DNA of 51,825 bases, taken from NCBI RefSeq assembly GCF_018614205.1, contig NZ_JAGGOS010000035.1:1-51825 (forward strand), written 5' to 3'. Below, in pieces: positions 22,486 to 46,082 of this stretch. How positions within the stretch are numbered: position 1 is the first letter of the stretch; every line of letters begins with the position of its first letter. The DNA is from Streptomyces sp. ISL-36 (lineage in GTDB: Bacteria > Actinomycetota > Actinomycetes > Streptomycetales > Streptomycetaceae). Under the pieces are notes generated by a model, which worked only from the letters and a program-made list of their open reading frames with translations, was not told the origin of the DNA and searched no databases. The translations under genes and the position numbers were made by a program.

Positions 22486-22929
22486 TCAGGGTGCTTCGAC
22501 CAGCGGGGGCTCCCCCATGGGGATGGTCAGCGCCTCGCGCAGGGCGCTGACCGCGTCGGTGCCGATGCGTTGCGCCAGGACGCCTTCGATGACGGTGAGG
22601 GTGTCCCGGGCGCGCCGGTGTACGCGCGCGCCCTCTGCCGTCGGGCGGATCAGGCGGCTGCGGGCGGAGGTGGGGTCGGGTGCCTGCTCCAGCAGGCCCA
22701 GGCCGATGAGGGCGTGCACCGCCTGGTGGGCGGTCTGCCGGGTGACGCCCATCCGGCGGGTCAGCCCCGAGACCGTGGTGCCCTCTTCCTCGAGGGCGGC
22801 GAAGACGGCCGCCTGCCCGACGGTGACCGGCTGCTCGCCAGCGGCCCGCATGCTGGCCAGCAACGCGTCGTCGAACCAGCGCTTGGCCTCGGTGAGGAGC
22901 TGGGGCAGGTTAAGTGCGGGGGCGGTCAT
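22486..22929 (-). CDS. MarR-family transcriptional regulator
   Basis: A 147-residue winged-helix regulator. The helix-turn-helix is EEEGTTVSGLTRRMGVTRQTAHQAVHALIGLGLLEQ (about 46-82), followed by the wing PDPTSARSRLIRPTAEG and a C-terminal dimer helix. It is divergent from queD, with a perfect palindrome at 22991-23005 between them. MarR proteins commonly sense phenolic ligands, which fits control of the flavonol dioxygenase operon, but this is inferred from position. Confidence 0.85.
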   Translation of the reverse strand: MTAPALNLPQLLTEAKRWFDDALLASMRAAGEQPVTVGQAAVFAALEEEGTTVSGLTRRMGVTRQTAHQAVHALIGLGLLEQAPDPTSARSRLIRPTAEGARVHRRARDTLTVIEGVLAQRIGTDAVSALREALTIPMGEPPLVEAP

Positions 22930-22990
22930 GGTTCCTCAGGGGACGGGGATTCGAGGATAACGAACGTACGGGGACTCCCCCGAGACGGAT

Positions 22991-23005
22991 GTCAGGTAGC
23001 CTGAC
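22991..23005. promoter_or_regulatory. MarR operator candidate
   Basis: GTCAGG-TAG-CCTGAC is a perfect 15-bp inverted repeat, 32 bp upstream of the queD start and 62 bp upstream of the marR start. Position and symmetry fit repression of queD and autoregulation of marR. Confidence 0.55.
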
Positions 23006-23036
23006 GCTCATCGTTCACGTCGCGCCGGAGGTTCTC

Positions 23037-23597
23037 ATGACCATGGAGTTCGCCCGTCCCAGCCGCCCGCGGTCGCACATCCCGGCCGAGCCCGGGAAGC
23101 CGTACTTCATCGAGAAGGGCATGGGCGACCGCGCCCATCTGTTCACCGACCTGGTCACCGTCTACGCGGGCGGCGAGCAGACCGAGAACGCCTTCAACTT
23201 CTTCACCGTCGAGGGCCCCAAGGGCGACCTCATACCCGCCCATCTCCACTCCGACACCTACGAGGTCTTCTACATCACGGACGGCGCGGTACGGCTGTTC
23301 GTGGAAGACCTGGAGGGTAAGCAGTACGAGAAGGTACTCACCGTCGGGGACTTCGGCTTCGTGCCGAAGAACTGCCCCCACGCATACCGCATCGAGCGCC
23401 ACCACAGCCGGGTCGTCGGTGTGGCCGCCGGACCGGGCGGCACCTTCGAGCGGTTCTTCGAGAACCTGGGCACCCCGACCGACGAACTCGGTCTGCCGCG
23501 CGAGCCGTACGTGCCCGAGCCGTCCAAGTTCGGCACCGTACCCCAGCGGTACGACGTGCGGTTCCTGCCCGACCACCAGTGGCGCACCGGGAGCTGA
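23037..23597 (+). CDS. queD: Monocupin quercetinase (flavonol 2,4-dioxygenase)
   Basis: A 186-residue monocupin that should open the heterocycle of quercetin with O2, releasing CO and forming 2-protocatechuoyl-phloroglucinol carboxylate. Cupin motif 1 is PAHLHSDTYEVFYITDGAV and motif 2 FGFVPKNCPHAYRIERH. The metal ligands fall at H69, H71, E76 and H115, the same positions as in the 186-residue Ni/Co-dependent QueD of Streptomyces sp. FLA; the length also matches, whereas Bacillus and fungal quercetinases are bicupins about twice as long. GGAGG at 23027-23031 supports the ATG at 23037. It is divergent from marR and is followed by two small XapX-like genes and a hydrolase. Confidence 0.92.
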   Translation: MTMEFARPSRPRSHIPAEPGKPYFIEKGMGDRAHLFTDLVTVYAGGEQTENAFNFFTVEGPKGDLIPAHLHSDTYEVFYITDGAVRLFVEDLEGKQYEKVLTVGDFGFVPKNCPHAYRIERHHSRVVGVAAGPGGTFERFFENLGTPTDELGLPREPYVPEPSKFGTVPQRYDVRFLPDHQWRTGS

Positions 23598-23602
23598 CCT
23601 CA

Positions 23603-23749
23603 GTGGCGTACGTGCACATGCTGCTGACCGGGGCGCTGGTCGGTGTCCTGTACGCGGTGGTGCGGGTGAAGGCCCCGACTCCGCCGCCCGTCGCGCTGTT
23701 CGGCCTGCTCGGCATGGTCGTCGGGCAGACGGTCATGAGGGCGCTGTGA
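23603..23749 (+). CDS. Small XapX/DUF1427-like membrane protein 1
   Basis: A 48-residue protein from a GTG 5 bp after the queD stop, with GGGAG upstream. It reads LLTGALVGVLYAVVRVKAPT, PPPVALFGLLGMVVGQ and TVMRAL, which is the XapX-domain pattern: two short hydrophobic segments with G-xxx-G spacing and a proline-rich turn. It is probably an inner-membrane peptide. XapX proteins have no established function and are found in nucleoside and aromatic catabolic operons. Its stop codon overlaps the start of the next gene (GTGA), so translation is coupled. Confidence 0.75.
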   Translation: MAYVHMLLTGALVGVLYAVVRVKAPTPPPVALFGLLGMVVGQTVMRAL

Positions 23750-24135: not shown

Positions 24136-25047
24136 ATGTCACTGACGCCCGATCTCGCCGCATTCCTAGCCCCGCCCGCCCCCGCGCAGCTGCCACTCCC
24201 GCCCGCCGCGCACCCCGAGCCGGGTGTACGGCTGCTGCGCGGCGTCCCGTACGCCTACCGTGCGGGCGTCCGCCCCCTCGAACTCGACCTGTGGCTGACC
24301 GACGAGCGGCAGGCCCCGCTGCCGGTCATCCTCTACATCCACGGCGGCGGCTGGCGTGCGGGCACGCGTACGGAGATGGGGCCGGCCTTCCGCCACTGGC
24401 GTCCTGACCCCTTCACGCGTCTCGTGCAGGCCGGGTTCGCCGTCGCCAGCCTCGACTACCGGCTCAGCGGCGAGGCCGTCTACCCGGCCCAGTTGGAGGA
24501 CGTCACCGCTGCCCTGACCTGGCTGTACGCACGAGCTGACGAACTCGGCCTGGACATGGGCCGGACTGTGTCGTGGGGCGAATCCGCAGGTGCCCACCTC
24601 GCCGCCCTGCTCGCCCTCACCGCACCGGTGAGCGGCTGCGTCGCCTGGTACGGGCCCACCGATCTGACCACCCTGCCCGGCCAGTCCCGGCCCGGCGCCT
24701 ACGACGCTGCCGACCCCACCACCCGCGAGGCCCTGCTGATCGGAGCGGCGATCAGCGAGGCGCCCGACCGTGCCCGCGCCGCCAGCCCGGTTACGCACGT
24801 CACCGCCGACGCGCCGCCGTTCCTCATCCTCCACGGCACCGACGACGCGCTCATCCCCGTTGCCCAGGGCGAGCAGCTCGCAGCCGCCCTGCGCGAGGCG
24901 GTCGGCCACGTCGACTTCCGACCCGTCCCCGGCGCGGACCACGGTTGGGCGGGCCTGCCGGACGAGGACGTCGAGCGGTGCTTCGTCGCCTCCCTGGACT
25001 TCGCCCGCACCTGCGCCGCAGGCCCGCGCTCACCCGCACGCCCCTAG
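24136..25047 (+). CDS. Alpha/beta-hydrolase (HSL/carboxylesterase type)
   Basis: A 303-residue esterase-like enzyme. The oxyanion-hole motif is YIHGGGWR (HGGGW at 69-73), the nucleophile is Ser150 in WGESAGAH, and Asp237 (HGTDDALIP) and His269 (GADHGW) complete the triad. No signal peptide is seen, so it acts in the cytoplasm. It is 102 bp downstream of xapX2 in the queD direction. A good candidate role is hydrolysis of the depside made by QueD into protocatechuate and 2,4,6-trihydroxybenzoate; this is inference from context. The family is broad, and the natural substrate could be another ester. Confidence 0.85.
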
Positions 25048-25271: not shown

Positions 25272-26231
25272 TCAGAGGCGGAGCAGGCGCTCGGCGTTGA
25301 GGTGGCAGATCTTGGCGCGGTCGGTCTCGCTGATCGGTGCGGTCTCGATGAATCGGACGGCGTCGTGGTTGCTTTCCAGAGGGTAGTCGGTGGCGAACAT
25401 GATGTGGTCGGCGCCGAGCGCCAGCAGGCTGCCGAGCAGAGGTGCATGGGCGCACACTCCGCTGGTGGTGATCATCATGTTGTCGCGGATGTAGTCGGAG
25501 GGGCGTGGCTTGGCCAGGCGGATGCCGCGTTGGTCGAGGAAGTCCCAGCGGCTGTCCAGGCGCCACAGGATGCCGGGGAGCCCTTCCCCCATGTGGCCCA
25601 GGACGAGGGTGGCGCCGGGGAAGCGGTCGAAGACGCCGCCGAAGAGGATGCGCAGGGCGTGGGTGGCGGTTTCCACGCCCCAGCTCCACATCGGCCCGAT
25701 CAGTTCCTCGTGGCCGCGCAGGTTGTGCCACACATCGTAGGAGTTCGCGGGGTGCAGGTAGACCGGCACACCGAGGGCCTCGGCGCGTTCCCACATCGGC
25801 CAGAACTTCTCCGCGTCCAGGTACTCGCCGTGCGTGTGGCCGTTGATCAGCGCGCCACGCAGGCCGAGTTGAGTGACTGCTCGTTCCAACTCGGCCGCGG
25901 CGCCGTCCGGGTCCTGCAGGGCCAGTGCCGCGAAGCCGGAGAAGCGGGTGGGGTGCTTGCCGGTGATCTCGGCGAGGAAGTCGTTGGCCTGTGCCGCGCG
26001 CTTGGTGGCGAGGGCCGTGTCGGTCTCGGCCTGGATGCCCGGTGCGGTCAGGGACAGCACCTCCATGTCTATGCCGAACTCGTCCATCTGGGGCAGGCGT
26101 ACGTCGGTGAAGTCCAGCAGGTGCCGTCTGGCCGCGTCCCATTGAGGCGGGTCGAACAAGGCGGCGGCGGGCAGGCTGTAGTGGGCCAGGGCGGACGTGG
26201 TGAAGTGCTCTTCGATCGCGATTTTTCTCAT
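25272..26231 (-). CDS. Amidohydrolase-type aromatic-acid decarboxylase (gamma-resorcylate decarboxylase-like)
   Basis: A 319-residue member of the ACMSD/gamma-resorcylate decarboxylase branch of the amidohydrolase superfamily. The metal-binding E-x-H is at the N-terminus (IAIEEHF, E7 and H9), with His160 in YLHPANSYD, His213 in LGHMGEG and Asp282 in FATDYP, matching the ligand and catalytic set of 2,6-dihydroxybenzoate decarboxylase. It would remove CO2 from a hydroxybenzoate without oxygen or cofactor. In this island 2,4,6-trihydroxybenzoate, giving phloroglucinol, is the obvious candidate (inference). It is the last gene of an iclR-MFS-decarboxylase unit. Confidence 0.85.
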   Translation of the reverse strand: MRKIAIEEHFTTSALAHYSLPAAALFDPPQWDAARRHLLDFTDVRLPQMDEFGIDMEVLSLTAPGIQAETDTALATKRAAQANDFLAEITGKHPTRFSGFAALALQDPDGAAAELERAVTQLGLRGALINGHTHGEYLDAEKFWPMWERAEALGVPVYLHPANSYDVWHNLRGHEELIGPMWSWGVETATHALRILFGGVFDRFPGATLVLGHMGEGLPGILWRLDSRWDFLDQRGIRLAKPRPSDYIRDNMMITTSGVCAHAPLLGSLLALGADHIMFATDYPLESNHDAVRFIETAPISETDRAKICHLNAERLLRL

Positions 26232-26336: not shown

Positions 26337-27698
26337 TCAGCTTCCTGGGCTGGGCTCCGCGGAACCGATGGGTACGCTCTGCCGGCGCGGGGCGCGGTGG
26401 CCGGCCGGCCGGGCCGGGACGGCGATCGCCGCCGTGGCGCCGACGGCGGCGGTGGCGGCGAAGAGGTAGAAGTTCCATTCCAGGCCGAGCGCGGAGTCGA
26501 GGATGCGTCCGCCGAGCGAGGGGCCGACGATGGCGCCGAGCCGGCCGACGGACAGCGACCAGCCGATGGCCGGCACGCGCAGATTTGCCGGCATGCGGTC
26601 GATCAGGTAGGCATTGACGAGCGCCTGGCAGGCCAGCAGCCCGAAGCCGCACACGAGCAGGCACAGGTACAGCACCCAGGTGGCCGGTTTGCGGCTCATC
26701 ACGAGCAGCCCGGCACTGCCGGCGAGGAACGCGCCGGCCACCACGCGCTTGGGGCCGAGTCGGTCGGCGAGCACCCCTCCGGGCACCAGACCGACGCCGG
26801 CGCCGATCCACGACAGACACGTCATGGTCAGGGCCGAGCCGATGGAGAAGCCGCCGGTCTGCATGAGGGTCGGCAGCCACGTGCTGAAGCCGAAGATCAG
26901 CAGCAGACCGCAGAAGGCCATCACCCAGAACAGCAGCGTGGTGACGACCAGCGGCCGGGAGAGCAGCGGGCCGAGCCCGAGGAACCGGTGGGCCGGCTCG
27001 GAGGCGGCGGGCGGTTGTGGAACCGGCAGGCCGAATCGGGCGGCGGTACGGGCGGCTTCCTCGGCCCTGCCGGTACGCAGCAGGTACTGCGGGCTCTCGG
27101 GCAGGCGCAGGAAGGCCCAGGGAACCGCGGTGAGCAGGGCGGCCGCGCCGACGGCGTACAGCATCCGGAAGGAGACGTCTGGCAGCAGCCACGAGCCGAG
27201 CAGCGGTGCCCCGAGGGAGCCGACGCAGGAGCCTGCCATGGTGATGGCGATGTTGCGGGCCCGCCGTTGAGGTGCGGACATGTCACCCACGACGGCGGTG
27301 AGCGTGGGCAGTACGACGCCGAGGCCGATCCCGGCGAGGAGGCGGGACGCTGCGAACACGCCGGGCCCGTCGGCCAGGGCGGAGCCGAGCATGCACAGGG
27401 AGAACAACGACAGGCCGTTCAGGAGCAGGCGGCGGGTGCCCAGGCGCCGCCCCGCGGCCCCGGCGACGCCCGCGCCGATGAGCATGCCGACGGCGACGAG
27501 CGATCCGATGTCGCCGGCTTCTCCCTTGGACAGGTTCCAGCCGGGCTCGTGCAGCAGCGCCGGCACGGTGGCCCCGTACACGGACAGGTCATAGCCTTCG
27601 AACATCGCGATGAGAGCGGCCAGCAGGACGAAAAGGCGTACGTCCGCAGGACGTGGTCGGGCCGGGGCCGGGCGTCTTGGAGACGGCTTCGCTTTCAT
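26337..27698 (-). CDS. MFS transporter, aromatic acid:H+ symporter (AAHS) type
   Basis: A 453-residue, 12-helix major facilitator. The first helix motif FEGYDLSVYGATVPALL is the DGYD-type signature of AAHS transporters such as PcaK and BenK, followed by GRRLGTRRLLL in loop 2-3 and PESPQYLLRTGR after helix 6. It should import an aromatic acid with protons. It lies between an IclR gene (88-bp gap) and the decarboxylase (105-bp gap) in one orientation, so its substrate is likely the hydroxybenzoate that the decarboxylase uses. Confidence 0.88.
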   Translation of the reverse strand: MKAKPSPRRPAPARPRPADVRLFVLLAALIAMFEGYDLSVYGATVPALLHEPGWNLSKGEAGDIGSLVAVGMLIGAGVAGAAGRRLGTRRLLLNGLSLFSLCMLGSALADGPGVFAASRLLAGIGLGVVLPTLTAVVGDMSAPQRRARNIAITMAGSCVGSLGAPLLGSWLLPDVSFRMLYAVGAAALLTAVPWAFLRLPESPQYLLRTGRAEEAARTAARFGLPVPQPPAASEPAHRFLGLGPLLSRPLVVTTLLFWVMAFCGLLLIFGFSTWLPTLMQTGGFSIGSALTMTCLSWIGAGVGLVPGGVLADRLGPKRVVAGAFLAGSAGLLVMSRKPATWVLYLCLLVCGFGLLACQALVNAYLIDRMPANLRVPAIGWSLSVGRLGAIVGPSLGGRILDSALGLEWNFYLFAATAAVGATAAIAVPARPAGHRAPRRQSVPIGSAEPSPGS

Positions 27699-27786: not shown

Positions 27787-28590
27787 TCACGATGCGGGCT
27801 TCATGGGGCCGAAGTCCGTTTCGATACGGTCCCTGGCGTGCAGCAGGGCATCGGCGATCGCCTGCTCCCGCCCGGTGAAGCGTTGCGTCGGGGTGGGCAC
27901 GCTGATGGCTGCGGTGCCCCAGGCCGCGGTGCGGATGGCGACGCCGGCCGCGGATATGCCGACGGTGTGCTCTTCGCGGTCGAAGGCGACGCCGGTGCGG
28001 CGAATGACGTCGAGCTCGCGGTGCAGGGCGGGGCGGGTGGTGAGGGTGTGCGGCGTTTCGGCGGTGAGCCGGTTCGGTACGGCGTGCTCGAACGCGTTCG
28101 TCGGGAGGGCGGCGAGCAGTGCCTTGCCGGGCGCGCAGCAGTGCAGGGGGAAACCGGCACCGACGGCGCTGACCGCGCGCAGCCGGCGGTCGGCGATGAC
28201 CTGGTCGACGAAGACCACCTGGTGGTCCTCCAGGACCGACAGGTCTACCGTTTCCTCGAGTTGACGGGACAGATCTTCCAGATGGGGACGCAGATCCACG
28301 ATCATGGCTGATCGCACGGAAGCGGCCATGCGGGGGATCTCCGGCCCCAGCCGGTACCGCCCGCGGGTGCCGGTCACGGTCACCAGTCCCTCCGCCTCCA
28401 GCGCACCGAGGATGCGGTGGACCGTGGACTTGGCAAGGCCGATCCGCTCGACCACCTCGGCCTGGGTCAGGCCGGACGGGGCTGCCTGGAGCAGGCGCAG
28501 CACCTCCGCGGCCCGCGCGATGACCTGGATGCCGCCCGACGTGGCCTCCCGTTTCGTCTCCTGCCCCACCGACTGGTCGGTCACCGGCAT
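27787..28590 (-). CDS. IclR-family regulator
   Basis: A 267-residue IclR protein. The N-terminal winged helix is AEVVERIGLAKSTVHRILGALEAEGLV; the ligand domain has CCAPGKALLAALP and the C-terminal VGISAAGVAIRTAAWGTAAISV block. The ATG at 28590 is supported by AGGGAG about 8 nt upstream; earlier in-frame codons are not. It precedes the AAHS transporter and decarboxylase genes and probably controls them in response to an aromatic acid. Confidence 0.87.
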   Translation of the reverse strand: MPVTDQSVGQETKREATSGGIQVIARAAEVLRLLQAAPSGLTQAEVVERIGLAKSTVHRILGALEAEGLVTVTGTRGRYRLGPEIPRMAASVRSAMIVDLRPHLEDLSRQLEETVDLSVLEDHQVVFVDQVIADRRLRAVSAVGAGFPLHCCAPGKALLAALPTNAFEHAVPNRLTAETPHTLTTRPALHRELDVIRRTGVAFDREEHTVGISAAGVAIRTAAWGTAAISVPTPTQRFTGREQAIADALLHARDRIETDFGPMKPAS

Positions 28591-28731
28591 GACTGCTCCC
28601 TTCTCCCGTCGTTCTCCGGGACCAGACTGCCGTATCGCTTCGGGGGCGGTGAGTACGGGCCGCATGTCAGCCCATGCGTTGATCCGGGCATCGCGGAAGC
28701 GTAGGTTTTCGGTTGCCCGTCACAGCTTCTC

Positions 28732-28762
28732 GACCGCCGGATGGCCTTGGGAACCGGTGGTC
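28732..28762 (-). terminator. Stem-loop after the MBL-fold gene
   Basis: GACCGCCGG and CCGGTGGTC pair at 8 of 9 positions around a 13-nt loop. The structure lies 38 bp past the metallo-hydrolase stop codon, between that gene and iclR. It may end the minus-strand transcript that begins at the phloroglucinol operon. Confidence 0.35.
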
Positions 28763-28799
28763 GGCCGGCTCGCAGCACTCAGGTGTGACGTGGGTGGGA

Positions 28800-29969
28800 T
28801 CATTTTCGCTTGCCGACCCCGAACTGGGTCAGGTCGTGACCTGGGGTGATCTTGCCGTGGTATGTCCTTCCTACGTCCCGGCGCCAGCGGTCGTCCGAGA
28901 CGTCCCGCGGATCGCCCGGGGTGAGGTGGCTGAGGACGACGTGGGCGACGTCTGCGGACTTCGCCACACGTCCCACGTCCTGGGCGGTGGTGTGGGCTTG
29001 CTCCATGTGGTCGCTGAAGCCCGGCCCGTAGCCCGTCGTGGTCTTGGCGAACCAGTCGAGGTTGGTCGCTTCGTGGACCAGGATGTGGCTGCCCGCGGCC
29101 AGTCGGGAGACGTTGTCGCTGTAGGCGGTGTCGCCGGAGAACGTCACCGATCCGTCGTCGGTGTCGAAGCGGTAGGCGAAGGAGGGGAAGACGGGCCCGT
29201 GGGGCACGAGGACGGCGGTCACCCTGACCCGCTCGTCCTCGAAGACGCGAAAGGGACGCATGGCGGGCGCGGTGTCGGTCGCGGAGGCGTTCGTCCCGGA
29301 GGGAAGGCGGATGTCCCGGGCGTCGAACAGCCGCTCCTCGTCGATGTGCGCGCCGACCTCCACATTGCGGATGTTCATGTCGTAGGCGTACGCGGACAGC
29401 AGACCCTCGAACATGTCCTCCGTGCCCGGGGTCGCCGCCTTGCCGGACCGCACCATCGGCACGGATTTCCCGCCGAACGGCTTGGCGAATCCGCCCGCGC
29501 GGCCGGGTCCGTGGACGGGAAGAGGCCCGCCGAGCTGATCGGGCTGCATCCAGAGCACGTTGAAGAGATCGAAGAGGTGGTCCGAGTGCAGGTGGGTGAT
29601 GAACATGCCGCTCAGGCCGGCCGGTTTCAGCCCGGCCTGTCCCATCCTGCGGGCTGCGCCGAGCCCTGCGTCGATTAGGTAGTGCCGGTCTCCGACGACG
29701 AGGGCGCTGGATATGCCGGCACGCCCGGCGCAGAAAACCGGTCCTCCCGTCGTGCCCAGCAGGACCAGGCGGGTGTGGTGGCCGTCGGCCTTTCCGGAGA
29801 GTGTGGTGGGCTCGGGTGGCACCGACGCGGAGGCCGGCTTCTGTGCGGTGGTGGAGGCGGCATGGCTCGTGCATGCGGTCAGCCCCGCTGCGGCCATTCC
29901 GAAGGCACCGAGTGCGGCGCGACGGGGCCATTGTCCGCCGTGCGTACGGCGGGTGTCGTCCTGTGGCAT
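28800..29969 (-). CDS. Exported MBL-fold metallo-hydrolase (probable Tat lipoprotein)
   Basis: A 389-residue metallo-beta-lactamase-fold protein with a twin-arginine-like signal (PRRAALGAFGMAAAGL) and a lipobox LTAC (Cys33), so it is probably anchored outside the membrane. Metal motifs are THLHSDH (H126, H128, D130, H131), PHGPVFPSFAYRF, SGDTAYSD and a late SHLTPGD. It resembles RNase Z/arylsulfatase-like MBL proteins. It lies 117 bp downstream of the BKACE gene, same strand. An extracellular lactonase, sulfatase or ester hydrolase acting on a plant phenolic conjugate would fit, but this is a guess from context. Confidence 0.8.
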   Translation of the reverse strand: MPQDDTRRTHGGQWPRRAALGAFGMAAAGLTACTSHAASTTAQKPASASVPPEPTTLSGKADGHHTRLVLLGTTGGPVFCAGRAGISSALVVGDRHYLIDAGLGAARRMGQAGLKPAGLSGMFITHLHSDHLFDLFNVLWMQPDQLGGPLPVHGPGRAGGFAKPFGGKSVPMVRSGKAATPGTEDMFEGLLSAYAYDMNIRNVEVGAHIDEERLFDARDIRLPSGTNASATDTAPAMRPFRVFEDERVRVTAVLVPHGPVFPSFAYRFDTDDGSVTFSGDTAYSDNVSRLAAGSHILVHEATNLDWFAKTTTGYGPGFSDHMEQAHTTAQDVGRVAKSADVAHVVLSHLTPGDPRDVSDDRWRRDVGRTYHGKITPGHDLTQFGVGKRK

Positions 29970-29996
29970 GTCTGCTCCTCCGGCATGTCTGCTCCT
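29965..29996. repeat. Tandem duplication of the MBL gene start region
   Basis: GGCATGTCTGCTCCT occurs at 29965-29979 and again at 29982-29996 (period 17 bp). Read on the minus strand, both copies supply AGGAG followed by an ATG (29969 and 29986). Because 17 is not a multiple of three, the outer ATG opens a different, short frame, so the duplication creates a competing start. Confidence 0.85.
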
Positions 29997-30086
29997 GTGG
30001 TACGAGCCGCTTGGTGGGTGGTGGCGCCACGGCGGGACGAGGACGGCAGAGCGCCCCGGGCGACGTGGCGCCTCGACAATCGACGG

Positions 30087-33863: not shown

Positions 33864-34089
33864 TGGGCCGTGCGCAATCTGTTGTTCACGTGGTCCGAGG
33901 TTCTTGGCCCCCCGTACGGACGCTTCGACGTCTCGACGTGGCCGCAACCTTCTTGCACACTGACCGCCACGGCTTGGGACGAGTCGCACAGTCGCGAATC
34001 GGTGAGGGCGCCTTGGAAGACTCCTCGTACGTGAACCGCAGCATCCCGGTGAGGAGCCTTCACCGGCGGCGGACGAAGGAGGCGCCCCG

Positions 34090-35133: not shown

Positions 35134-35178
35134 ATGGTTCTGCCACCCTCTTCCCCACCTCCCGGAACTCTCCGGTGA
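35134..35178 (+). other. Possible 14-codon leader reading frame
   Basis: An ATG at 35134 with GGAG 9 nt upstream (35122-35125) opens a frame MVLPPSSPPPGTLR whose TGA overlaps the GTG start of the transporter (GTGA). It may couple translation or be chance. The many prolines could slow ribosomes. Weak evidence. Confidence 0.25.
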
Positions 35179-37617: not shown

Positions 37618-37847
37618 CCCCGCTCCACCCACCCGTCCTCTCCGGCGAGGACGTCTACCGCATCCACTGGGTGCTCGGTACCGACCGGCTGCTGGCCGTC
37701 TGTCACTGCGGTGCGCGGCGGGAGTTCGAGGACCCGGTGGGTCTGTGGGACTGGTTGCTGGGGCACCCCGAGGACCACCACCCCGGCCCGGTCCCGGAGT
37801 CCGCTCCCGCGTCCGCCCCCCAGCCTCGGCACGCGGCCTTCGCCTGA
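37614..37847 (+). CDS. Small conserved-looking protein between oxygenase and reductase
   Basis: A 77-residue protein starting in the stop codon of the oxygenase gene (ATGA overlap). It reads VYRIHWVLGTDRLLAVCHCG, then ARREFEDPVGLWDWLLGHPE, then DHHP and a Pro/Ala tail. The CHCG and HPEDHH groups could bind a metal. It is not a ferredoxin. Translational coupling and the position between the two Rieske components suggest an accessory or assembly factor. I do not recognise a named family. Confidence 0.6.
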   Translation: MTPLHPPVLSGEDVYRIHWVLGTDRLLAVCHCGARREFEDPVGLWDWLLGHPEDHHPGPVPESAPASAPQPRHAAFA

Positions 37848-38901: not shown

Positions 38902-39525
38902 CTACAGCCCCTTGCCGTCGGCCGCGATCCTGCTCATCAGGCTGTCCAGGTGTGAGCGCATCACGGAGATCAAGTCGAAGGAACGCCCGCTGGCCAGCCA
39001 CTGGAGCCGTAGTCCGGCGTCGAGTGCCGCGCACTCCCGGGCGATGCTCTCATGGTTCAGGCCCGCCTTGAGTTCACCCGACTCGGCGCCGGCGCGCAGG
39101 CGGTCCGCGAGTTCCCGTACGCCCTTTTCCTGCCAGTGGGAGAAGAAGTCATGTGCTGGGTGGTCGGGAGCGGTGGCCTCAGCGCCCACCACGACGGCGA
39201 GTTCGAGGATCCCCGGCATGTTCAGCGATTCGGCGGTGTCTTCAAGGTGGCAGCGGAAGGCGTCCCGCACGGAGTCGGACACGCGTACCCACCGCTCGTC
39301 GAGCTGCTCGTGCCAGTACTGCACCACGGCCAGCAGTAGTTGCTGTTTGTCGCCAAAGTGATGGAGCAGCCCGGCGTCGGTGATCCCTGCATCGCGGGCA
39401 ACGCGGGCCAGTGAGGTCTTGCGGTAACCGTCCTGGCCGAAGCGCAGCAGCGCGGCCTCGAGGATCTGGTTGCGCCTGGCCAGCCCTGTTGCGTAGCCGC
39501 CGCGCGGCCCCCGTGGTGTCGCCAT
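38902..39525 (-). CDS. TetR-family regulator
   Basis: A 207-residue TetR protein. The helix-turn-helix is FGQDGYRKTSLARVARDAGITDAGLLHHFGDKQQLLLAVV (about 25-64); the C-terminal ligand domain is all helical. The ATG at 39525 (MATPRGPRGG) is taken; an upstream extension lacks a start signal. It is divergent from a DHA2 transporter, an arrangement like the flavonoid-responsive LmrA/QdoR-LmrB pair of Bacillus. A flavonoid effector is therefore plausible, but only by analogy. Confidence 0.87.
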   Translation of the reverse strand: MATPRGPRGGYATGLARRNQILEAALLRFGQDGYRKTSLARVARDAGITDAGLLHHFGDKQQLLLAVVQYWHEQLDERWVRVSDSVRDAFRCHLEDTAESLNMPGILELAVVVGAEATAPDHPAHDFFSHWQEKGVRELADRLRAGAESGELKAGLNHESIARECAALDAGLRLQWLASGRSFDLISVMRSHLDSLMSRIAADGKGL

Positions 39526-39616: not shown

Positions 39617-39636
39617 AGTGTGACTCAGGTCACACT
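39617..39636. promoter_or_regulatory. Crp-type site candidate
   Basis: AGTGTGAC-TCAG-GTCACACT is a perfect 20-bp palindrome. It contains TGTGA-N6-TCACA, the classical Crp consensus, and fits the Streptomyces form GTG-N6-GNCAC. It lies between tetR and the DHA2/glycosidase operon, 151 bp before the transporter start, and could bring global carbon control to glycoside use. Confidence 0.5.
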
Positions 39637-39643
39637 TTGAATA

Positions 39644-39786: not shown

Positions 39787-41256
39787 ATGACACCGACGTC
39801 TGCGAGCCCCCCGCTCGACGCAGCATCCTCCGACGACACCGCGAGATGGACCCCGCGTCTGGTCGCCATACTCATCGCGCTCATCTGGCCGACCCAGCTC
39901 CTGGCCGCCGCCGGCATTCTGGGGGCCAATGCCACCGCCAGCGTGGCGCAGAGCTTCCACACCACCCAGGTGGCCTGGTTCGGTCTGACCGTCGTCCTCG
40001 TCTCGACGTTGCTGACGCCGTTCGTCATGAAAATGGGTGACCGGTACGGCAAGAAGCGGCTCATGCTCGTGATGACCGGCTTGGGGGTCAGCGGAGACAT
40101 CATCGCCGCGCTTGCGGGCAGTTTCTGGCTGCTGCTTGTCGGGCGGGCGATCGCCGGCTGTTACGGCCCGTTCGCCGCCTTGTCCTTCCCCGCCGTGCGG
40201 GACATTTTCCCTGCCCGGCTGGTGAAGCCCGCCAGCGCCGTCCTGGGCAGCAGCGTCGGCCTGGTGGCCCTGGCCGCGCCGTTCCTGGCCGGCCGGCTGG
40301 TCGACGGCTGGGGCTACAAGGGCGTGATGTGGTTCCTCGCCGCGGCCTCCGTCGTCGGCTTCGCGCTGATCGCCCTTCTGGTGCCGCAGACCCCACGGCA
40401 CGACTTCCGGCCCGGCTTCGACTGGCTCGGCGGTCTGGCCCTCGGCGCGGGCCTGACCGCGGTCGTCTACGCGGTCGGGCAGGGACAGAGCTGGGGGTGG
40501 GCCGACGCCAAAACCTTCAGCTGGCTCGCCGTCGGCCTGGTCGCACTGGTCGTCTTCTTCTTCGTGGAGCGCTCCAGCGCCCACCCCATCCTGGACCTGA
40601 AGGTGCTCAGCCGCCGCCCGGTCGCCCTGGTTCTCGTCACCGGAGGGCTCGCCCAGGCCGTCGCCTTCACCATGCCCGCCATGGCGATCCTGCTCGCCCT
40701 CTACCCGCACATCCCCGGGGTCTCCGCCGGTCTCGGATGGACCGCACAGCACAATGCCGCCGTCAGCGTGACCTGGAACGTGGTGATGTTCGGTACCGGA
40801 CTCGTCGCCAGCCGCCTCCTGCGCACCACCGACGCCCGCCTGCTCTGGTGGACGGGGCTGGCCCTGATGGCAGTTGGCTACGGCCTGGTGGGCTTCTTCC
40901 ACGCGAACGAGACCGAACTCATCCTCACCTCGTGCCTGGCCAACCTCGGCTCCGGTCTCGTCGTCGCAGGAGCTCCGGCGCTGGTCGTCGGCGTCGTGTC
41001 CAAGGACGAGCAAGGGCTGGGCAGCGGCATGCTCAACATGCTCATCAACTTCTTCGGCGCCATCGTCACCGCCCTCTCGTTCGCCGCCCTCGCGACACAC
41101 AGCACCGTCGTGGACGGCACCGCCTTCTACCAGGACGGCGGCTACGCCTGGCTCTTCTGGACCGGAGCACTGATCACGGTGCTGACCCTGGCGATCTCGC
41201 TGCTCATCCCCGCACTGCGGGATCCGGCGGAAACCGACGCCGCCCCCGTCGTCTGA
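39787..41256 (+). CDS. MFS transporter, DHA2 (EmrB/QacA-like) type
   Basis: A 489-residue, probably 14-helix major facilitator. Early helices carry WFGLTVVLVSTLLTPFVMKM and the loop motif GDRYGKKRLMLV; LVPQTPRHDF follows helix 6. The family mostly exports drugs by proton antiport, but some members move plant phenolics. It heads the operon with the rhamnosidase and GH3 genes (49-bp gap) and has AAAGGAG before the ATG. It may bring in flavonol glycosides or expel toxic aglycones. Confidence 0.85.
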   Translation: MTPTSASPPLDAASSDDTARWTPRLVAILIALIWPTQLLAAAGILGANATASVAQSFHTTQVAWFGLTVVLVSTLLTPFVMKMGDRYGKKRLMLVMTGLGVSGDIIAALAGSFWLLLVGRAIAGCYGPFAALSFPAVRDIFPARLVKPASAVLGSSVGLVALAAPFLAGRLVDGWGYKGVMWFLAAASVVGFALIALLVPQTPRHDFRPGFDWLGGLALGAGLTAVVYAVGQGQSWGWADAKTFSWLAVGLVALVVFFFVERSSAHPILDLKVLSRRPVALVLVTGGLAQAVAFTMPAMAILLALYPHIPGVSAGLGWTAQHNAAVSVTWNVVMFGTGLVASRLLRTTDARLLWWTGLALMAVGYGLVGFFHANETELILTSCLANLGSGLVVAGAPALVVGVVSKDEQGLGSGMLNMLINFFGAIVTALSFAALATHSTVVDGTAFYQDGGYAWLFWTGALITVLTLAISLLIPALRDPAETDAAPVV

Positions 41257-41305: not shown

Positions 41306-43609
41306 ATGTCACACCCCTGGACCGCTCAGGTCATCACCCCCGCCCGGCCGCAAGAGCCGCCGGCCACGGCGGGCCGGCCCGCCCCGCTGCTGCGCGCTGT
41401 GTTCACCGTGAGCAGCCAGGTGAGACGGGCGGAGCTGAGGGTCACCGCCCTGGGGGTGTACGAGATGCATCTCAACGGCGGCGTGGTCGGTGACCACGTC
41501 CTGGCCCCGGGCTGGACCAGTTACCATCACCGCCACCGCTACCAGTCCTTCGACGTGACCACGTTGTTGCGGCCCGGCACCAACGCCTGGGGCGCGTACC
41601 TCGCGGACGGCTGGTACCGGGGCCTGCTCGGATTCAACGGCGGCAACCGCGACATCTACGGACCGGACACCGGACTGCTCGCCGAGCTGAGGATCGAGTA
41701 CGCCGACGGCAGCCTCCAGACGGTGACGACCGGTCCCGGCTGGCGAGCGTCGGCCGGGCCGGTCATCGCCGCCGGCCTGTACGAGGGGGAGGACTTCGAC
41801 GCCCGCCGGGAGCCGCCCGGCTGGAGCGAACCGGACTTCGACGACACGCACTGGCAGCCGGTGCGCGTGGTGGACTTCGACACCTCGGTACTCTTCCCGG
41901 CCGACAGCCCCCCGGTACGGCGCATCGAGTGCCTGCCCCCGGTGGCCGTCACCACCTCGCCCGCCGGGCGCACCCTCCTGGACTTCGGTCAGAACCTGGT
42001 CGGCAGACTCCGCATCCGCGTCCGCGGAGAGGCGGGTCGCACAGTCACACTGCGGCACGCGGAAGTGCTGGAGATCGGCGAGTTGTGCGTGCGCCCGCTG
42101 CGTGGCGCCACGGCCACCGACCGCTACACCCTGCGTGGCGACACCGACGGCGAGCAGTGGGAGCCCCGCTTCACCTTCCACGGCTTCCGCTACGCCGAAA
42201 TCGACAACTGGCCCGGCGAACTCGCCCCCGGTGACGTCACCGCTGTGGTCCTGCACAGCGACCTGCACCGGACCGGCTGGTTCGAGACCTCCGACCCATC
42301 ACTGAACCGGCTGCACGAGAACGTGGTGTGGGGGATGCGGGGCAACTTCCTGGACGTTCCCACAGACTGCCCCCAGCGCGACGAACGCCTCGGCTGGAGC
42401 GGCGACATCCAGGTCTTCGCCCCCACCGCCACATTCCTCTACGACACCAAGGACTTCCTGCGCTCCTGGCTGCGCGACTTTGCCGCCGACCAGAGCGAGG
42501 ACCCCGACGGCATCCCCCCGGTGATCAGCCCCACCATCCCGTTGAACATCCCCGTCCCCATGCCTCCCGGCAACCCTCCGATGGCCGGCTGGTGCGACGC
42601 CGCCGTCATCGTCCCGTGGGTCCTGTACGAGCGATACGGCGACACCGAGGTACTGCGCACCCAATACCCGTCCATGCGTAGCTGGGTGGACGCCGTCGAC
42701 CGGATCGCCGGCCCAGGACATGTGTGGGGCGAGGGCTTCCAGTTCGGCGACTGGCTCGACCCCACCGCGTCCCCAGACGACCCCGGCCAGTCGATGACCT
42801 CCTCTCAGCTCGTCGCGACCGCGTTCTTCGCGCATTCGGCGCGACTGCTCTCCCGCACCGCCGAGGTGCTTGGCGAGAAGGACGACGCCGAGCGCTACCA
42901 CGCTCTCGCCGGTGCCGTGCGGCACGCTTTCCGCGCCCGATTCCACACCGGCGGCGGCCGCCTGGTGGAAGAGACCCAGACCGCCTACGCCCTCGCCCTC
43001 GGCTTCGACCTGCTCCACGACGACGCCGAACGAGCCGAGGCCGGGAACCGGCTGGCCGCCCTGGTGACCGAGCGCGGCCACCGCATCGGGACCGGCTTCC
43101 TCGGCACGCCTCTCGTGTGCGACGCGCTCACCGCGACCGGCCACACCGACACCGCGTACAGGTTGCTGCTGGAGCGCTCCTGCCCATCGTGGCTCTACCA
43201 GGTGGACATGGGCGCCACCACAATCTGGGAGCGCTGGGACAGCCTGCTCCCGGACGGCAGCGTCAACCCCGGAGAGATGACCTCCTTCAACCACTACGCG
43301 CTCGGCGCGATCGCCGACTGGCTGCACCGCACCGTCGCGGGTCTCGCGCCAGCCGCCCCCGGATACCGCCGCCTGCTCGTCCGGCCCCGGCCGGGCGGCG
43401 GTCTCACCTGGGTGAAGGCCGCGCACGAGACACCGTACGGACGGGCCGAGGTGGCGTGGCGCCTGCACGAAGGGGAGCTGACCGTCGACGTCACCGTCCC
43501 CCAGGGCACCGAGGCCACCATCGATCTGCCAGGCGCCGAGCCCACCCGGGCCGGGCCGGGCACCCACACCTTCCACGCCCCCCACCGCACCACCGAGGAG
43601 CAGCAGTGA
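41306..43609 (+). CDS. GH78 alpha-L-rhamnosidase
   Basis: A 767-residue family 78 glycosidase that should remove terminal alpha-L-rhamnose, for example from rutin or hesperidin. Beta domains cover about 30-320 and the (alpha/alpha)6 catalytic barrel about 325-690, starting with the conserved block PTDCPQRDERLGWSGD (352-367), which holds acidic residues of the active site. GATTIWERWDS and the C-terminal beta domain follow. It is shorter than many GH78 enzymes (900-1,100) because the first N-terminal module is absent. No signal peptide is seen, so the glycoside must be imported first. Its stop overlaps the GH3 start (GTGA). Confidence 0.92.
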   Translation: MSHPWTAQVITPARPQEPPATAGRPAPLLRAVFTVSSQVRRAELRVTALGVYEMHLNGGVVGDHVLAPGWTSYHHRHRYQSFDVTTLLRPGTNAWGAYLADGWYRGLLGFNGGNRDIYGPDTGLLAELRIEYADGSLQTVTTGPGWRASAGPVIAAGLYEGEDFDARREPPGWSEPDFDDTHWQPVRVVDFDTSVLFPADSPPVRRIECLPPVAVTTSPAGRTLLDFGQNLVGRLRIRVRGEAGRTVTLRHAEVLEIGELCVRPLRGATATDRYTLRGDTDGEQWEPRFTFHGFRYAEIDNWPGELAPGDVTAVVLHSDLHRTGWFETSDPSLNRLHENVVWGMRGNFLDVPTDCPQRDERLGWSGDIQVFAPTATFLYDTKDFLRSWLRDFAADQSEDPDGIPPVISPTIPLNIPVPMPPGNPPMAGWCDAAVIVPWVLYERYGDTEVLRTQYPSMRSWVDAVDRIAGPGHVWGEGFQFGDWLDPTASPDDPGQSMTSSQLVATAFFAHSARLLSRTAEVLGEKDDAERYHALAGAVRHAFRARFHTGGGRLVEETQTAYALALGFDLLHDDAERAEAGNRLAALVTERGHRIGTGFLGTPLVCDALTATGHTDTAYRLLLERSCPSWLYQVDMGATTIWERWDSLLPDGSVNPGEMTSFNHYALGAIADWLHRTVAGLAPAAPGYRRLLVRPRPGGGLTWVKAAHETPYGRAEVAWRLHEGELTVDVTVPQGTEATIDLPGAEPTRAGPGTHTFHAPHRTTEEQQ

Positions 43610-45378
43610 CCCACCCGTACCAGGACCCCAGCCGCAGCCTCGAGGAGCGGGTGGCGGACCTGCTGCCCCGGATGGCGCTGGAAGAGAAGGCCGGGCTGCT
43701 GTTCCACCACGCGATAGGCATCGGAGCGAACCCCGCACCCATCGGCCTCACCGCCGAGCAGATGATGTCCGACAAGCTGATGTCGCACTTCAACCTGCTG
43801 GGCGCGGGCACCCCCCGCGAAATGGCGGAGCTCCACAACCGGCTGCAGGAGCAGGCCGCCGCCACCAGGCTGGGCATCCCGGTGACGCTGTCCACGGACC
43901 CGCGCCACGCGTTCACCGACAACCCGGGTACCGCGATGATGGCCGGCCCGTTCTCCCAGTGGCCCGAGGCCCTGGGCCTGGCCGCCATCGATGACATCGA
44001 CCTGGTACGCCAGTACGGCGACACCGTGCGCCGTGAGTACCTGGCCGTCGGGCTGCGCGTCGCCCTGCACCCGCAGATCGACCTGGCGACCGAGCCGCGC
44101 TGGGCCCGCATCTCGGGCACTTTCGGCGAGGACGCCGACCTGACCTCCCGCATGGCCGCCGCGTACATCGAGGGCCTACGGGGCCCGGGCGGGCAGCTCG
44201 GCCAGGACAGCGTGGCCGCGATGGTCAAGCACTTCCCCGGCGGCGGCCCGCAGAAGGACGGTGAGGACCCGCACTTCCCCTACGGCAGGGAACAGGTCTA
44301 CCCGGGCGGCTTCTTCGACTACCACCTCAAGCCGTTCAGGGCGGCCATCGCCGCCGGCGCCACGCAGGTGATGCCGTACTACGGCATGCCGGTCGGCACG
44401 ACGTACGAAGAGGTCGGATTCGGCTTCAACCACGGCATCATCACGGGGCTGTTGCGCGAGGAGCTGGACTTTGACGGCATCGTCTGCACCGACTGGGGAC
44501 TGCTCACCGACGGCCCGATCATGGGCGAGATGCACACCGCCCGCGCCTGGGGCGTGGAACACCTCACGCCCGAGGAGCGGGCGCTGAAGGTGCTGCACGC
44601 CGGCGCCGACCAGATCGGCGGCGAAGCCTGCCCCGAGCTGATCACCGGCCTGATCCGCGACGGACGGCTGGCGGAATCCAGGCTCGACGCCTCCGTCACT
44701 CGCCTGCTGGCCGAGAAATTCCGCCTCGGCCTGTTCGACGACCGCCGCTACGTCGACCCGGACGCCGCCGAAGAGATCGTCGGCCGCGCCGACTTCCGTA
44801 CCGCCGGCGAGGCCGCCCAGCGCCGCTCGCTGACCCTGCTGGAGAACCGCGTCGGCGTACTGCCGCTGACCGGCCGCCCCCGGCTGTACGTGGAGGGCGT
44901 CGACCCGGCCGTGGCCGCCGAGTACACGGACATCGTCGCCGACCCGGCCCATGGCGATCTCGCGGTGCTGCGCCTGAACACACCCTACGAGCCTCGCCAG
45001 GGCCTGTTCGAGTCCTTCTTCCACGCAGGCAGGCTCGACTTCGACCGGGACCGCCTCAAGCAGATTCTCGCCCTGCTCGACACGGTGCCCACCGTCGTCA
45101 CCATCCACCTCGAACGGCCCGCCGTCATCCCCGAGATCGCCGACCGCTGCGCCGCCCTCCTCGCCGCGTACGGCGCCGGAGACCGGGCGCTGCTCGACGT
45201 CCTGTTCGGCCGGGCCGCCCCCGAGGGCGCGCTGCCCTTCCAGCTTCCCCGGTCCATGGCCGAGGTCGGGGCCGGCCGCCCCGACGTCCCGCAGGAGAGC
45301 CCCAATCCGCTCTACCCCTTCGGCCACGGGCTTCGATACGCCGCACCACAGGCGACGCAGCCGAACCGCGCACACTGA
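43606..45378 (+). CDS. GH3 beta-glycosidase
   Basis: A 590-residue family 3 glycosidase, cytoplasmic by lack of a signal peptide. The N-terminal barrel contains KHFPGGG (208-214) and the nucleophile Asp296 in GIVCTDWG; the C-terminal alpha/beta sandwich supplies the acid/base but no fibronectin III domain follows, so it is shorter than the usual 700-800 residues. It starts at a GTG overlapping the rhamnosidase stop by 4 bp, so the two are translated together. In a rutin pathway it would remove glucose after rhamnose; a beta-xylosidase role is possible. Confidence 0.9.
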   Translation: MTHPYQDPSRSLEERVADLLPRMALEEKAGLLFHHAIGIGANPAPIGLTAEQMMSDKLMSHFNLLGAGTPREMAELHNRLQEQAAATRLGIPVTLSTDPRHAFTDNPGTAMMAGPFSQWPEALGLAAIDDIDLVRQYGDTVRREYLAVGLRVALHPQIDLATEPRWARISGTFGEDADLTSRMAAAYIEGLRGPGGQLGQDSVAAMVKHFPGGGPQKDGEDPHFPYGREQVYPGGFFDYHLKPFRAAIAAGATQVMPYYGMPVGTTYEEVGFGFNHGIITGLLREELDFDGIVCTDWGLLTDGPIMGEMHTARAWGVEHLTPEERALKVLHAGADQIGGEACPELITGLIRDGRLAESRLDASVTRLLAEKFRLGLFDDRRYVDPDAAEEIVGRADFRTAGEAAQRRSLTLLENRVGVLPLTGRPRLYVEGVDPAVAAEYTDIVADPAHGDLAVLRLNTPYEPRQGLFESFFHAGRLDFDRDRLKQILALLDTVPTVVTIHLERPAVIPEIADRCAALLAAYGAGDRALLDVLFGRAAPEGALPFQLPRSMAEVGAGRPDVPQESPNPLYPFGHGLRYAAPQATQPNRAH

Positions 45379-45467
45379 GCCCCACGTCCGTCGCACCTCC
45401 TTCGCGGCTTCCCCCCAAGCGACCGGCCTCACCCCATTCAAACCACGCGTGAAAACGAGGAGTACCC

Positions 45468-46082
45468 ATGAGCAGCACCTTCCCCAACGGCTTCCTGTGG
45501 GGCGCCGCGACCGCTGCCCACCAGGTCGAGGGCGGCAACGTCAACAACGACTTCTGGGAGATGGAGCACCGCCCCGACACCTTCTTCGCCGAGCCCAGCG
45601 GGGACGCCTGCGACAGCTGGCATCGTTGGGCGGAGGACCTGCTCGACGGCACCCTCGCGGAGTGCGACCGGACCGGCGACGGACGGGCCCACTACTCCCA
45701 CAAGCACCGCCGGCACGGCGTGAACGTGCAGGTCGTGACCGACCCGACGGGCCACATGCTGTGGATCTCGCCCGCGCTGCCCGGCCGTACCCACGACCTC
45801 ACAGCGGCCCGCGCGCACCGGATCATCCGGATCTGCGAACGCCAGGGCGTCCCCGTCCTTGCCGACCGCGCCTACCAGGGAGCCGGACCGTGGGTGACCA
45901 CCGGACGCAAACGGCCTCCAGAAGGTGAACTGTCCTTGACCCAGCGCACGGTCAATCGGGCACTGGCCCAGGCCCGAGCACCCGTCGAACGCGGAATGGC
46001 ACGACTGAAGTCCTGGCGCATCTTCCGCCGGTCCCGCGTAAGCCCGGGGGTCGAGGAACATCGGAACGAAAACCGGCGCTAA
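45468..46082 (+). pseudogene. GH1 beta-glucosidase fragment fused in frame to an IS5-type transposase fragment
   Basis: Codons 1-58 (45468 to about 45641) encode the start of a family 1 beta-glucosidase (NGFLWGAATAAHQVEGGNVN, DACDSWHRWAEDL). The frame then continues without a break into the middle and end of an IS5-family DDE transposase (LLDGTLAECDR, SHKHRRHGVNVQVVTDPTGH, PGRTHDLTAAR, VLADRAYQGAG). After RIFRRSRVS the frame runs into the Tn3 left end and stops within the inverted repeat. The GH1 catalytic glutamates are all missing and the transposase lacks its N-terminus, so neither part can work. An intact start with AACGAGGAG remains, so the fusion may still be translated. Confidence 0.85.
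46041..46045. repeat. Target-site duplication, left copy (AGCCC)
   Basis: AGCCC directly precedes the left inverted repeat and is repeated directly after the right one at 51644-51648. A 5-bp duplication is the hallmark of Tn3-family insertion. Confidence 0.9.

Follow-up and report, generated by a model that had tools for sequence, protein, structure and literature searches.

What becomes of the A-ring of a flavonol in Streptomyces, and can a single locus carry a flavonol glycoside beyond cleavage of the flavonol? These questions are raised by a 23-kb block at positions 22486 to 45641 of the window, by which we mean the whole stretch of 51,825 nucleotides analyzed here, from contig NZ_JAGGOS010000035.1 (label G000:C147) of the 7.98-Mb, 216-contig assembly of Streptomyces sp. 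ISL-36. Although bacterial quercetinases have received study as enzymes, Streptomyces strain FLA reportedly grows poorly on quercetin, and the sources used here give no fate for the A-ring in Streptomyces. A sequence-only reading of the window had proposed that this block spells a nearly complete route from rutin through quercetin and its depside to protocatechuate plus 2,4,6-trihydroxybenzoate, and from there through phloroglucinol to acetoacetate and acetoacetyl-CoA. We found support for this route, in that for most steps the island encodes a protein whose nearest relative of solved structure or characterized function carries out the chemistry concerned, together with neighborhood links. We read the block for gene content, spacing, conserved residues, synteny, and distribution, and the substrates, fluxes, and regulation proposed below are predictions from these observations. 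On this basis the block would likely allow its host to draw carbon from rutin and other flavonol rhamnoglucosides. Rutin catabolism, as given in the excerpt of PMC12411887 that cites Tranchimand 2010, proceeds through a glycosidase, a dioxygenase, and an esterase to CO, protocatechuate, and phloroglucinol. The island has these three steps in common with that pathway, and, whereas phloroglucinol is a product in that excerpt, the island adds genes for its reductive breakdown.

The island contains 21 open reading frames supported by family membership or conservation, along with a truncated GH1 gene. All of the gene classes named in the earlier reading (glycosidases, QueD, esterase, decarboxylase, phloroglucinol set, Rieske pair, transporters, and regulators) were found between 22486 and 45641 as open frames with third-position GC bias and matching Pfam or NCBIfam hits; its list was correct as far as it went and lacked a small cupin (30907 to 31263), a 77-amino-acid (77-aa) open reading frame (37614 to 37847), and a metallo-beta-lactamase (MBL)-fold protein (28800 to 29969). 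The genes fall into four units. Unit A is MarR-QueD-esterase; unit B, on the minus strand, is amidohydrolase-MFS-IclR-[MBL]-BKACE-small cupin-DPGC-HADH-PGR; unit C is IclR-MFS-Rieske oxygenase-77-aa frame-Rieske reductase; and unit D is a TetR gene with MFS-GH78-GH3-GH1. Colinear DNA matches to Streptomyces flavidovirens at 87 to 94% identity span 25272 to 45641 except for the MBL segment, so the content of the island is not a product of chance.

The core of unit B consists of five minus-strand genes encoding a BKACE enzyme (30087 to 30905; Pfam BKACE, 304 bits), a small cupin (cupS, 30907 to 31263), a cyclase-family protein (31260 to 32096; Pfam Cyclase, 135 bits), a 3-hydroxyacyl-dehydrogenase-family protein (HADH, 32103 to 32990; Pfam 3HCDH_N/3HCDH), and a short-chain dehydrogenase/reductase (SDR, 32984 to 33784). 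The intergenic gaps from BKACE to the SDR gene are 1, -4, 6, and -7 bp, and the five genes therefore probably form a single operon. In Zhou et al. (2023, mBio, PMC10470551), the Clostridium scatologenes cluster PGR-DPGC-TfD-TAL is a proved phloroglucinol pathway, and the island has the same four families in one gene run with a transporter and a regulator nearby. By this comparison, the SDR is a putative phloroglucinol reductase (PGR), the cyclase-family protein a putative dihydrophloroglucinol cyclohydrolase (DPGC), HADH a proposed (S)-3-hydroxy-5-oxohexanoate dehydrogenase (TfD), and the BKACE enzyme a proposed triacetate:acetyl-CoA acetoacetate-lyase (TAL). In the proposed sequence, PGR would reduce, DPGC hydrolyze, HADH oxidize, and BKACE cleave, converting phloroglucinol to acetoacetate plus acetoacetyl-CoA.

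The same paper gives diagnostic residue features for three of these enzymes, namely a Trp/Tyr pair (Trp20/Tyr22) in DPGC replacing the Ile/Leu of isatin hydrolase, the absence from TAL of Glu14 of the lysine-pathway enzyme Kce (with Trp16 in C. scatologenes), and a TR(S/N) motif for NADPH in PGR; the island operon has two of the three, with the DPGC and TAL features kept. To compare residues, we used alignments of hits with over 80% coverage and 30% or more identity, comprising the window sequence plus 80 of 80 locus hits for DPGC, 46 of 50 for BKACE, and 78 of 79 for PGR. DPGC residues W33 and Y35 and the metal-motif residues H66, D68, and H72 were invariant (81 of 81 aligned), with the Trp/Tyr correspondence set by alignment to the Acetoanaerobium DPGC rather than to that of C. 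scatologenes. The island BKACE has Ile13 at the position of Kce Glu14, and Ile stands there in 45 of the 47 aligned sequences; the island thus has Ile rather than the Trp of TAL. The closest PDB entries to the SDR were 5g4k/5g4l at 171 bits, the next protein being 45 bits lower at 126. We take these entries, which bear no more specific title than "oxidoreductase, short chain dehydrogenase/reductase family protein," to represent phloroglucinol reductase from Clostridium sp. ATCC BAA-442. The island PGR and 5g4k have in common the stretch PTVFRS-LT-WM, in which T198, F200, R201, and S202 were invariant and V199 was found in 78 of the 79 aligned sequences. In contrast, the island PGR lacks the clostridial Arg. 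By our own alignment, the motif site reads AGGN in the island and TGRN in 5g4k, and the Arg was found in 0 of the 79 aligned PGRs, residue 49 being Gly (73 sequences), Ala (5), or Ser (1) instead. Since the TR(S/N) motif is not conserved, a claim of identical cofactor use is weakened; with the clostridial NADPH-motif Arg replaced, NADH may be the preferred cofactor of these PGRs, and its use would balance the NADH made by HADH.

These observations also bear on whether the SDR-HADH-cyclase-BKACE operon acts on some other cyclic 1,3-diketone or polyol-derived ring. The families are large, the SDR is without the clostridial Arg at the NADPH motif, and the best NCBIfam match of BKACE was lysine-fermentation Kce, at 282 of the 382 bits of the cut-off, with the model for 3,5-dioxohexanoate:acetyl-CoA acetone transferase lower still (178 of 430 bits). 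We consider another ring substrate very improbable nonetheless, given the invariant DPGC Trp/Tyr pair and metal-motif residues, the closeness of the SDR to 5g4k with its shared motif, and a cluster in Acetoanaerobium (Clostridia) in which all five families lie in one run, the BKACE protein has the TAL tryptophan, and the HADH member is 42% identical to that of the island. Phloroglucinol is thus the substrate that we retain for the operon. Its proposed regulator, IclR1 (27787 to 28590, minus strand; Pfam IclR_C, 148 bits), has a homologue in 70 of 80 DPGC loci, 14 of these being under 45% identity. Reduced PGR-DPGC clusters were also seen in three loci (L035, L036, and L037) and 16 other Mycobacterium loci, which are without HADH, BKACE, and the small cupin in the fetched flanks.

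The fifth gene of the operon, cupS, sits between the DPGC and BKACE genes in the island and is conserved among DPGC loci, with homologues in 60 of 80 and a relative in the Clostridia (Acetoanaerobium) cluster (36% identity, 4e-27). The main text of PMC10470551 makes no mention of any cupin. In an alignment of the window sequence with 40 of the 60 homologues (10 having been removed by an 88% redundancy filter and 10 by hand, including the apparently misframed L046), residues Y15, H20, R27, Q29, R95, and N99 are invariant and the HxH motif is absent. The AlphaFold model has a pLDDT of 94, and a fold search with it returned generic cupins only, so no function can be derived from the fold. In the Thermotoga cupin TM1459, which has the cupS fold, metal histidines 52, 54, 58, and 92 correspond approximately to A55, T57, T61, and R95 of cupS by a 3-residue offset; His 52, 54, and 58 are taken from mutant structure titles, and His 92 is presumably the fourth metal ligand. 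NCBIfam model NF050094 (above its cut-off) and UniRef name cupS a beta-D-galactosidase, a name that is doubtful because the gene sits in phloroglucinol loci. Instead, this metal-less cupin is likely an overlooked fifth component of phloroglucinol breakdown, which would probably bind or tautomerize a 1,3-diketone intermediate.

Unit A supplies the predicted flavonol cleavage step. The queD gene (22989 to 23597, plus strand, with a likely start at 23037 giving 186 aa) lies divergent from a MarR-family regulator gene (22486 to 22929, minus strand; Pfam MarR_2, 42 bits). Its product matches Streptomyces QueD (PDB 5fli/5flh) at 347 bits across all 186 residues and has single-cupin length. The Streptomyces sp. 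FLA enzyme has a 3His/1Glu motif including H69, E76, and H115, according to PMC4416304; both proteins are monocupins, and their metal ligands are numbered alike. In the 186-aa reading of the island protein, His69, His71, Glu76, and His115 stand at identical numbers, H71 being what we take to be the fourth metal ligand. The island QueD is thus predicted to be a flavonol-cleaving monocupin quercetinase, which would convert quercetin and O2 to the depside and CO. It differs from the FLA enzyme in adjoining candidate genes for both product halves. We also found copies of the island MarR gene, 88% identical, beside two other QueD genes (L164 and L165), and the host genome has a second MarR-QueD-esterase unit on another contig (G000:C30; L165, 5653 to 8125) that is 82 to 91% identical to that of the island. 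Between queD and the esterase gene there is a 56-aa frame with coding-like composition (23579 to 23749).

Two further genes could link flavonol cleavage to the phloroglucinol operon. One encodes a BD-FAE/alpha-beta hydrolase (24136 to 25047, plus strand; Pfam BD-FAE, 176 bits; GESAG motif), the likely enzyme for splitting the depside into protocatechuate and 2,4,6-trihydroxybenzoate. The other encodes an amidohydrolase of the gamma-resorcylate decarboxylase kind (AmidoDC, 25272 to 26231, minus strand), next to the gene for an aromatic acid/H+ symport-type major facilitator superfamily (MFS) transporter (26337 to 27605, minus strand; TIGR00895, 210 bits, under the cut-off of 418). The best PDB matches of AmidoDC, over its full length, were gamma-resorcylate (2,6-dihydroxybenzoate) decarboxylases (3s4t, 276 bits; 2dvt, 247 bits), and the alignment keeps the EEH, LHP, GHMGEG, and TDYP/TDWP segments; we take the metal ligands of these decarboxylases to lie in the corresponding E-x-H, H, H, and D segments. 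The proposed substrate, 2,4,6-trihydroxybenzoate, is the 4-hydroxy analogue of gamma-resorcylate, and its decarboxylation would yield phloroglucinol. The neighborhood points the same way, as AmidoDC homologues adjoin the phloroglucinol operon in S. flavidovirens (90% identity), Nocardiopsis (89%), and a third Streptomyces genome, G332 (89%), and a 48% homologue lies in the Steroidobacter phloroglucinol locus L085. The exact substrate of AmidoDC and the role of the esterase are proposals from family membership and gene position. In addition, amidohydrolases of about 30% identity to AmidoDC directly adjoin QueD genes in 7 of 20 Streptomyces QueD loci read and in CB03234 (L168, L169, L170, L173, L174, L177, L178, and L113) and may be a second type of depside hydrolase or of trihydroxybenzoate decarboxylase.

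Compared with the C. scatologenes cluster, the island lies in an aerobe, and O2-dependent flavonol cleavage with a decarboxylase takes the place of chalcone isomerase and phloretin hydrolase. We asked how often the two halves of this route occur together. The earlier reading had suggested searching Streptomyces for co-occurrence of queD with the phloroglucinol set. In such a search, QueD (E <= 1e-40) was found in 58 of 392 Streptomyces genomes and close DPGC (95% identity or more) in 3 of 392, the next-best DPGC hit being 34% over residues 17 to 173, and all three close-DPGC genomes have QueD. Because these genomes are related, they do not amount to three independent events. AmidoDC at 89% identity or more was found in 2 of the 392 genomes, and 31 have a hit at E <= 1e-80. 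Five gene arrangements bring a flavonol-dioxygenase candidate next to the phloroglucinol operon. In S. flavidovirens DSM 40150, units B to D follow the order of the island, with DNA identities of 87 to 94% from AmidoDC to GH1 and without the MBL gene. In Nocardiopsis chromatogenes, the run from PGR to AmidoDC is followed by TetR-MFS-GH78-GH3 and then by genes for a BD-FAE esterase (39%) and a Cupin_2 protein of 355 aa (33% to QueD). Streptomyces sp. CB03234 has QueD-amidohydrolase-MFS adjoining PGR, and in the actinomycete metagenome-assembled genome Ww175 the genes surrounding the operon encode a QueD relative (42%), an amidohydrolase, LigB, GH78, GH1, and a CoA transferase. A sulfatase gene (L031, 8713 to 9963) separates HADH from DPGC within the phloroglucinol operon of S. 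flavidovirens; its product possibly acts on sulfated phenolics. The Nocardiopsis Cupin_2 protein (L163, 16463 to 17530), beside the BD-FAE esterase, is a possible bicupin replacement of monocupin QueD.

Several observations weigh against a single route fixed in one island. The island esterase is a generic BD-FAE family member, the two QueD-linked 30% amidohydrolases searched and the Nocardiopsis bicupin-length protein matched no NCBIfam model at 1e-10, and no esterase was found in the CB03234 stretches read. Unit A is not stable: in S. flavidovirens (L031, 14483 to 17438) it occupies the same end of the block but runs the other way with respect to AmidoDC, and its esterase, MarR, and QueD proteins are only 53%, 60%, and 77 to 80% identical to those of the island. 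The closest units to that of the island (82 to 91%) are instead on G332:C68 and G000:C30, and G332 carries its unit A on a different contig, with other genes beside AmidoDC. QueD units therefore appear to have been added to the B-D block on separate occasions, so that the idea of one fixed island is weakened and that of repeated joining strengthened. Last, the GH1 gene is broken and an unrelated MBL gene lies among the operons.

The variable place and orientation of unit A among relatives, and its second copy elsewhere in the host genome, could also mean that unrelated modules have been brought together with no shared flux, QueD and the esterase serving detoxification and the phloroglucinol operon serving other sources such as phloretin, acylphloroglucinols, or free 2,4,6-trihydroxybenzoate. 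Distribution favors this alternative. Close DPGC is absent from 55 of the 58 QueD-bearing Streptomyces genomes, and QueD was found in only 3 of 80 DPGC loci, the other 77 being without it in the fetched flanks, so the union of QueD with the phloroglucinol operon is rare. These 80 loci were the best 80 of 336 and had flanks of 10 kb, some on short contigs. Likewise, none of 20 Streptomyces QueD loci read had DPGC, with the esterase in 16, MarR in 14, the 30% amidohydrolase in 7, and GH78 in 2. This sample was a nonrandom choice from the 31 best-scoring of 62 matches, read with flanks of at most some 10 kb per side, and it passed over the host genome, G332, the CB03234 genome (G006), and a number of further matches, most of them on short contigs. 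On the other side, the connecting decarboxylase gene is on the same strand as the operon and just after it in the island, S. flavidovirens, G332, and Nocardiopsis, flavonol-dioxygenase candidates adjoin the operon in the five arrangements above, and no phloretin/DAPG-hydrolase family hit appeared for the 20 island proteins scanned with Pfam. Weighing both sides, we regard a chance union of modules as unlikely and keep the connected flavonol route, with the added proposal that QueD alone would detoxify and that the block adds carbon use.

Unit D would bring the glycosides into this route. It comprises a TetR-family regulator gene (38902 to 39525, minus strand; Pfam TetR_N, 48 bits) and, on the plus strand, genes for a DHA2/UriT-like MFS transporter (39787 to 41256; Pfam MFS_1, 104 bits), a GH78 alpha-L-rhamnosidase (41306 to 43609; Pfam Bac_rhamnosid6H, 428 bits), a GH3 beta-glucosidase-like protein (43606 to 45378; Pfam Glyco_hydro_3, 133 bits), and the GH1 stump. 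The MFS gene ends 49 bp before that for GH78, which the GH3 gene overlaps by 4 bp. No export-like N-terminus was found in GH78, GH3, QueD, or the esterase by a simple hydropathy scan, and for this reason the linked MFS protein likely imports the intact glycoside, from which GH78 would remove rhamnose and GH3 (formerly GH1 too) glucose. Between the TetR gene and MFS-GH78-GH3, at 39617 to 39636, lies a perfect TetR-type palindrome with 8-bp arms, AGTGTGAC-N4-GTCACACT, which is a candidate, unproven operator. The only other return of the operator search was an inverted repeat at 34046 to 34066, likewise unproven.

Unit C, on the plus strand, has genes for an IclR-family (PcaR/PobR-like) regulator, IclR2 (34090 to 34860; Pfam IclR_C, 121 bits; TIGR02431, 131 bits, under its cut-off), a second aromatic acid/H+ symport-type transporter, MFS2 (35175 to 36527; TIGR00895, 349 bits, cut-off 418), a Rieske oxygenase with a VanA_C domain (36553 to 37617; Pfam VanA_C, 138 bits) that is a proposed O-demethylase, and a flavin/2Fe-2S Rieske reductase (37877 to 38848; Pfam Fer2 and NAD_binding_1). 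The 77-aa frame between the two Rieske genes (37614 to 37847) has no Pfam family and is 90% identical in S. flavidovirens and 77% in G332. A frameshift in the reductase gene, which would have joined these last two frames, was rejected because the first is a separate open reading frame conserved in these two relatives. A likely role for the Rieske module is to let O-methylated B-rings, as vanillate-type acids, enter the same route, and it may serve other aromatic acids. Its presence inside the block with its own MFS and IclR genes in the island, S. flavidovirens, and G332 would also suit a reading in which O-methylated flavonol rhamnoglucosides, such as isorhamnetin glycosides, are the natural substrates, the Rieske pair is obligatory, and rutin is incidental. 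We give this reading perhaps one chance in a handful or slightly better, as no such module appeared in the sequence read from Nocardiopsis and CB03234 and the best solved match of the Rieske protein, dicamba O-demethylase, scored only 142 bits; the wider class of flavonol rhamnoglucosides, rutin among them, remains our preferred set of substrates. For the protocatechuate half, host contig G000:C112 carries a pcaG gene that scores above its cut-off and a gene for a CoA transferase of the PcaI/ScoA family, so that protocatechuate, and perhaps acetoacetate, have exits; protocatechuate would leave through pcaGH, elsewhere in the genome.

The earlier reading held that the block is bounded by broken genes and may be transferable. 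The first claim stands on the left, where a penicillin acylase gene of the host looks disrupted, stopping at profile position 406 of 675, and fails on the right. The GH1 remnant there (45468 to 45641, plus strand; N-terminal approximately 58 codons, Glyco_hydro_1 positions 2 to 64) runs in the same frame into a DDE (IS5-type) transposase remnant (45642 to 46082, plus strand; Pfam DDE_Tnp_4, 97 bits), and the S. flavidovirens DNA match stops at this junction, position 45641. The broken GH1 gene was therefore rejected as an insertion border: it belongs to the island as its last gene, into which an insertion sequence has cut. Relatives of the transposase remnant include a 94% copy on a Streptomyces plasmid, annotated as a transposase family protein, and an 85% copy assigned to IS5/IS1182. 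To the right of the block, beyond this IS5-type remnant, the stretch from 46252 to 50298 holds an integrase-like gene, a gene for a barstar-domain protein, and a Tn3-type transposase gene.

As for transfer, the distribution is patchy, as expected of a mobile island, and the base composition is not deviant: GC content is 0.67 to 0.73 all along the block, the same as in the flanks, giving no sign of foreign origin. No tRNA genes were found in the window. The gyrB DNA identities to the host are 93% for S. flavidovirens, 90% for G332, 90% for the CB03234 genome, 77% for Nocardiopsis, and 74% for Amycolatopsis. Units B to D are 77 to 92% identical to G332 (GH3 77%, GH78 80%, and the rest 88 to 92%), and the CB03234 operon with IclR1 is 85 to 88% identical to the island. 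As the identities in Streptomyces relatives are near those of gyrB, units B and C could have been inherited vertically within this Streptomyces group. Nocardiopsis DNA is 84 to 89% identical to the island in unit B and 79% in unit D, above the 77% of gyrB, which suggests exchange between the Streptomyces and Nocardiopsis lineages, a single housekeeping gene being thin evidence; in a sample of the Nocardiopsis family, DPGC at E <= 1e-90 was found in 2 of 61. The claim of transferability thus gains only indirect support from the patchy distribution and the Nocardiopsis identities and loses from the unremarkable GC content. A plasmid lead in Streptomyces NBC_01727, which has a BKACE-like gene, was rejected as a different aromatic cluster.

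The gene for the MBL-fold protein (28800 to 29969, minus strand; Pfam Lactamase_B_2), which has a Tat/lipobox-like N-terminus and looks secreted, is an insertion between IclR1 and BKACE seen at this place only here. Its segment (28539 to 30094) is absent from the colinear DNA matches of relatives, and no hit to it was found in the 80 DPGC loci or the 20 QueD loci. S. flavidovirens has a 42% hit covering 32% of its length, located beyond the island (L161, 17508 to 18017).

A reductive phloroglucinol route in an aerobe is not new in itself, because PMC10470551 already lists predicted clusters for Mycobacterium, Mesorhizobium, and Bradyrhizobium; what is new is the presence of two known pathways in one locus and an overlooked conserved cupin. 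The claim that no described single locus joins these pathways held in the literature that we listed, which was judged by titles and the starts of abstracts and left subscription journals mostly outside its scope. More broadly, we lean, by a narrow measure, toward a view in which actinomycetes have joined O2-dependent flavonol cleavage to an anaerobe-type phloroglucinol route in at least five arrangements, with a trihydroxybenzoate decarboxylase as the usual connector and the cupin as a fifth component common to anaerobes and aerobes, turning a detoxifying quercetinase to complete mineralization of flavonol glycosides. Such a gene set would close a gap on the fate of the flavonol A-ring in Streptomyces and predicts which Streptomyces could live on flavonols. 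It would also place a pathway elucidated in an anaerobe behind an oxygenase, offers a candidate gene for the decarboxylation of 2,4,6-trihydroxybenzoate, and adds a conserved, overlooked cupin candidate to a pathway described with four enzymes.

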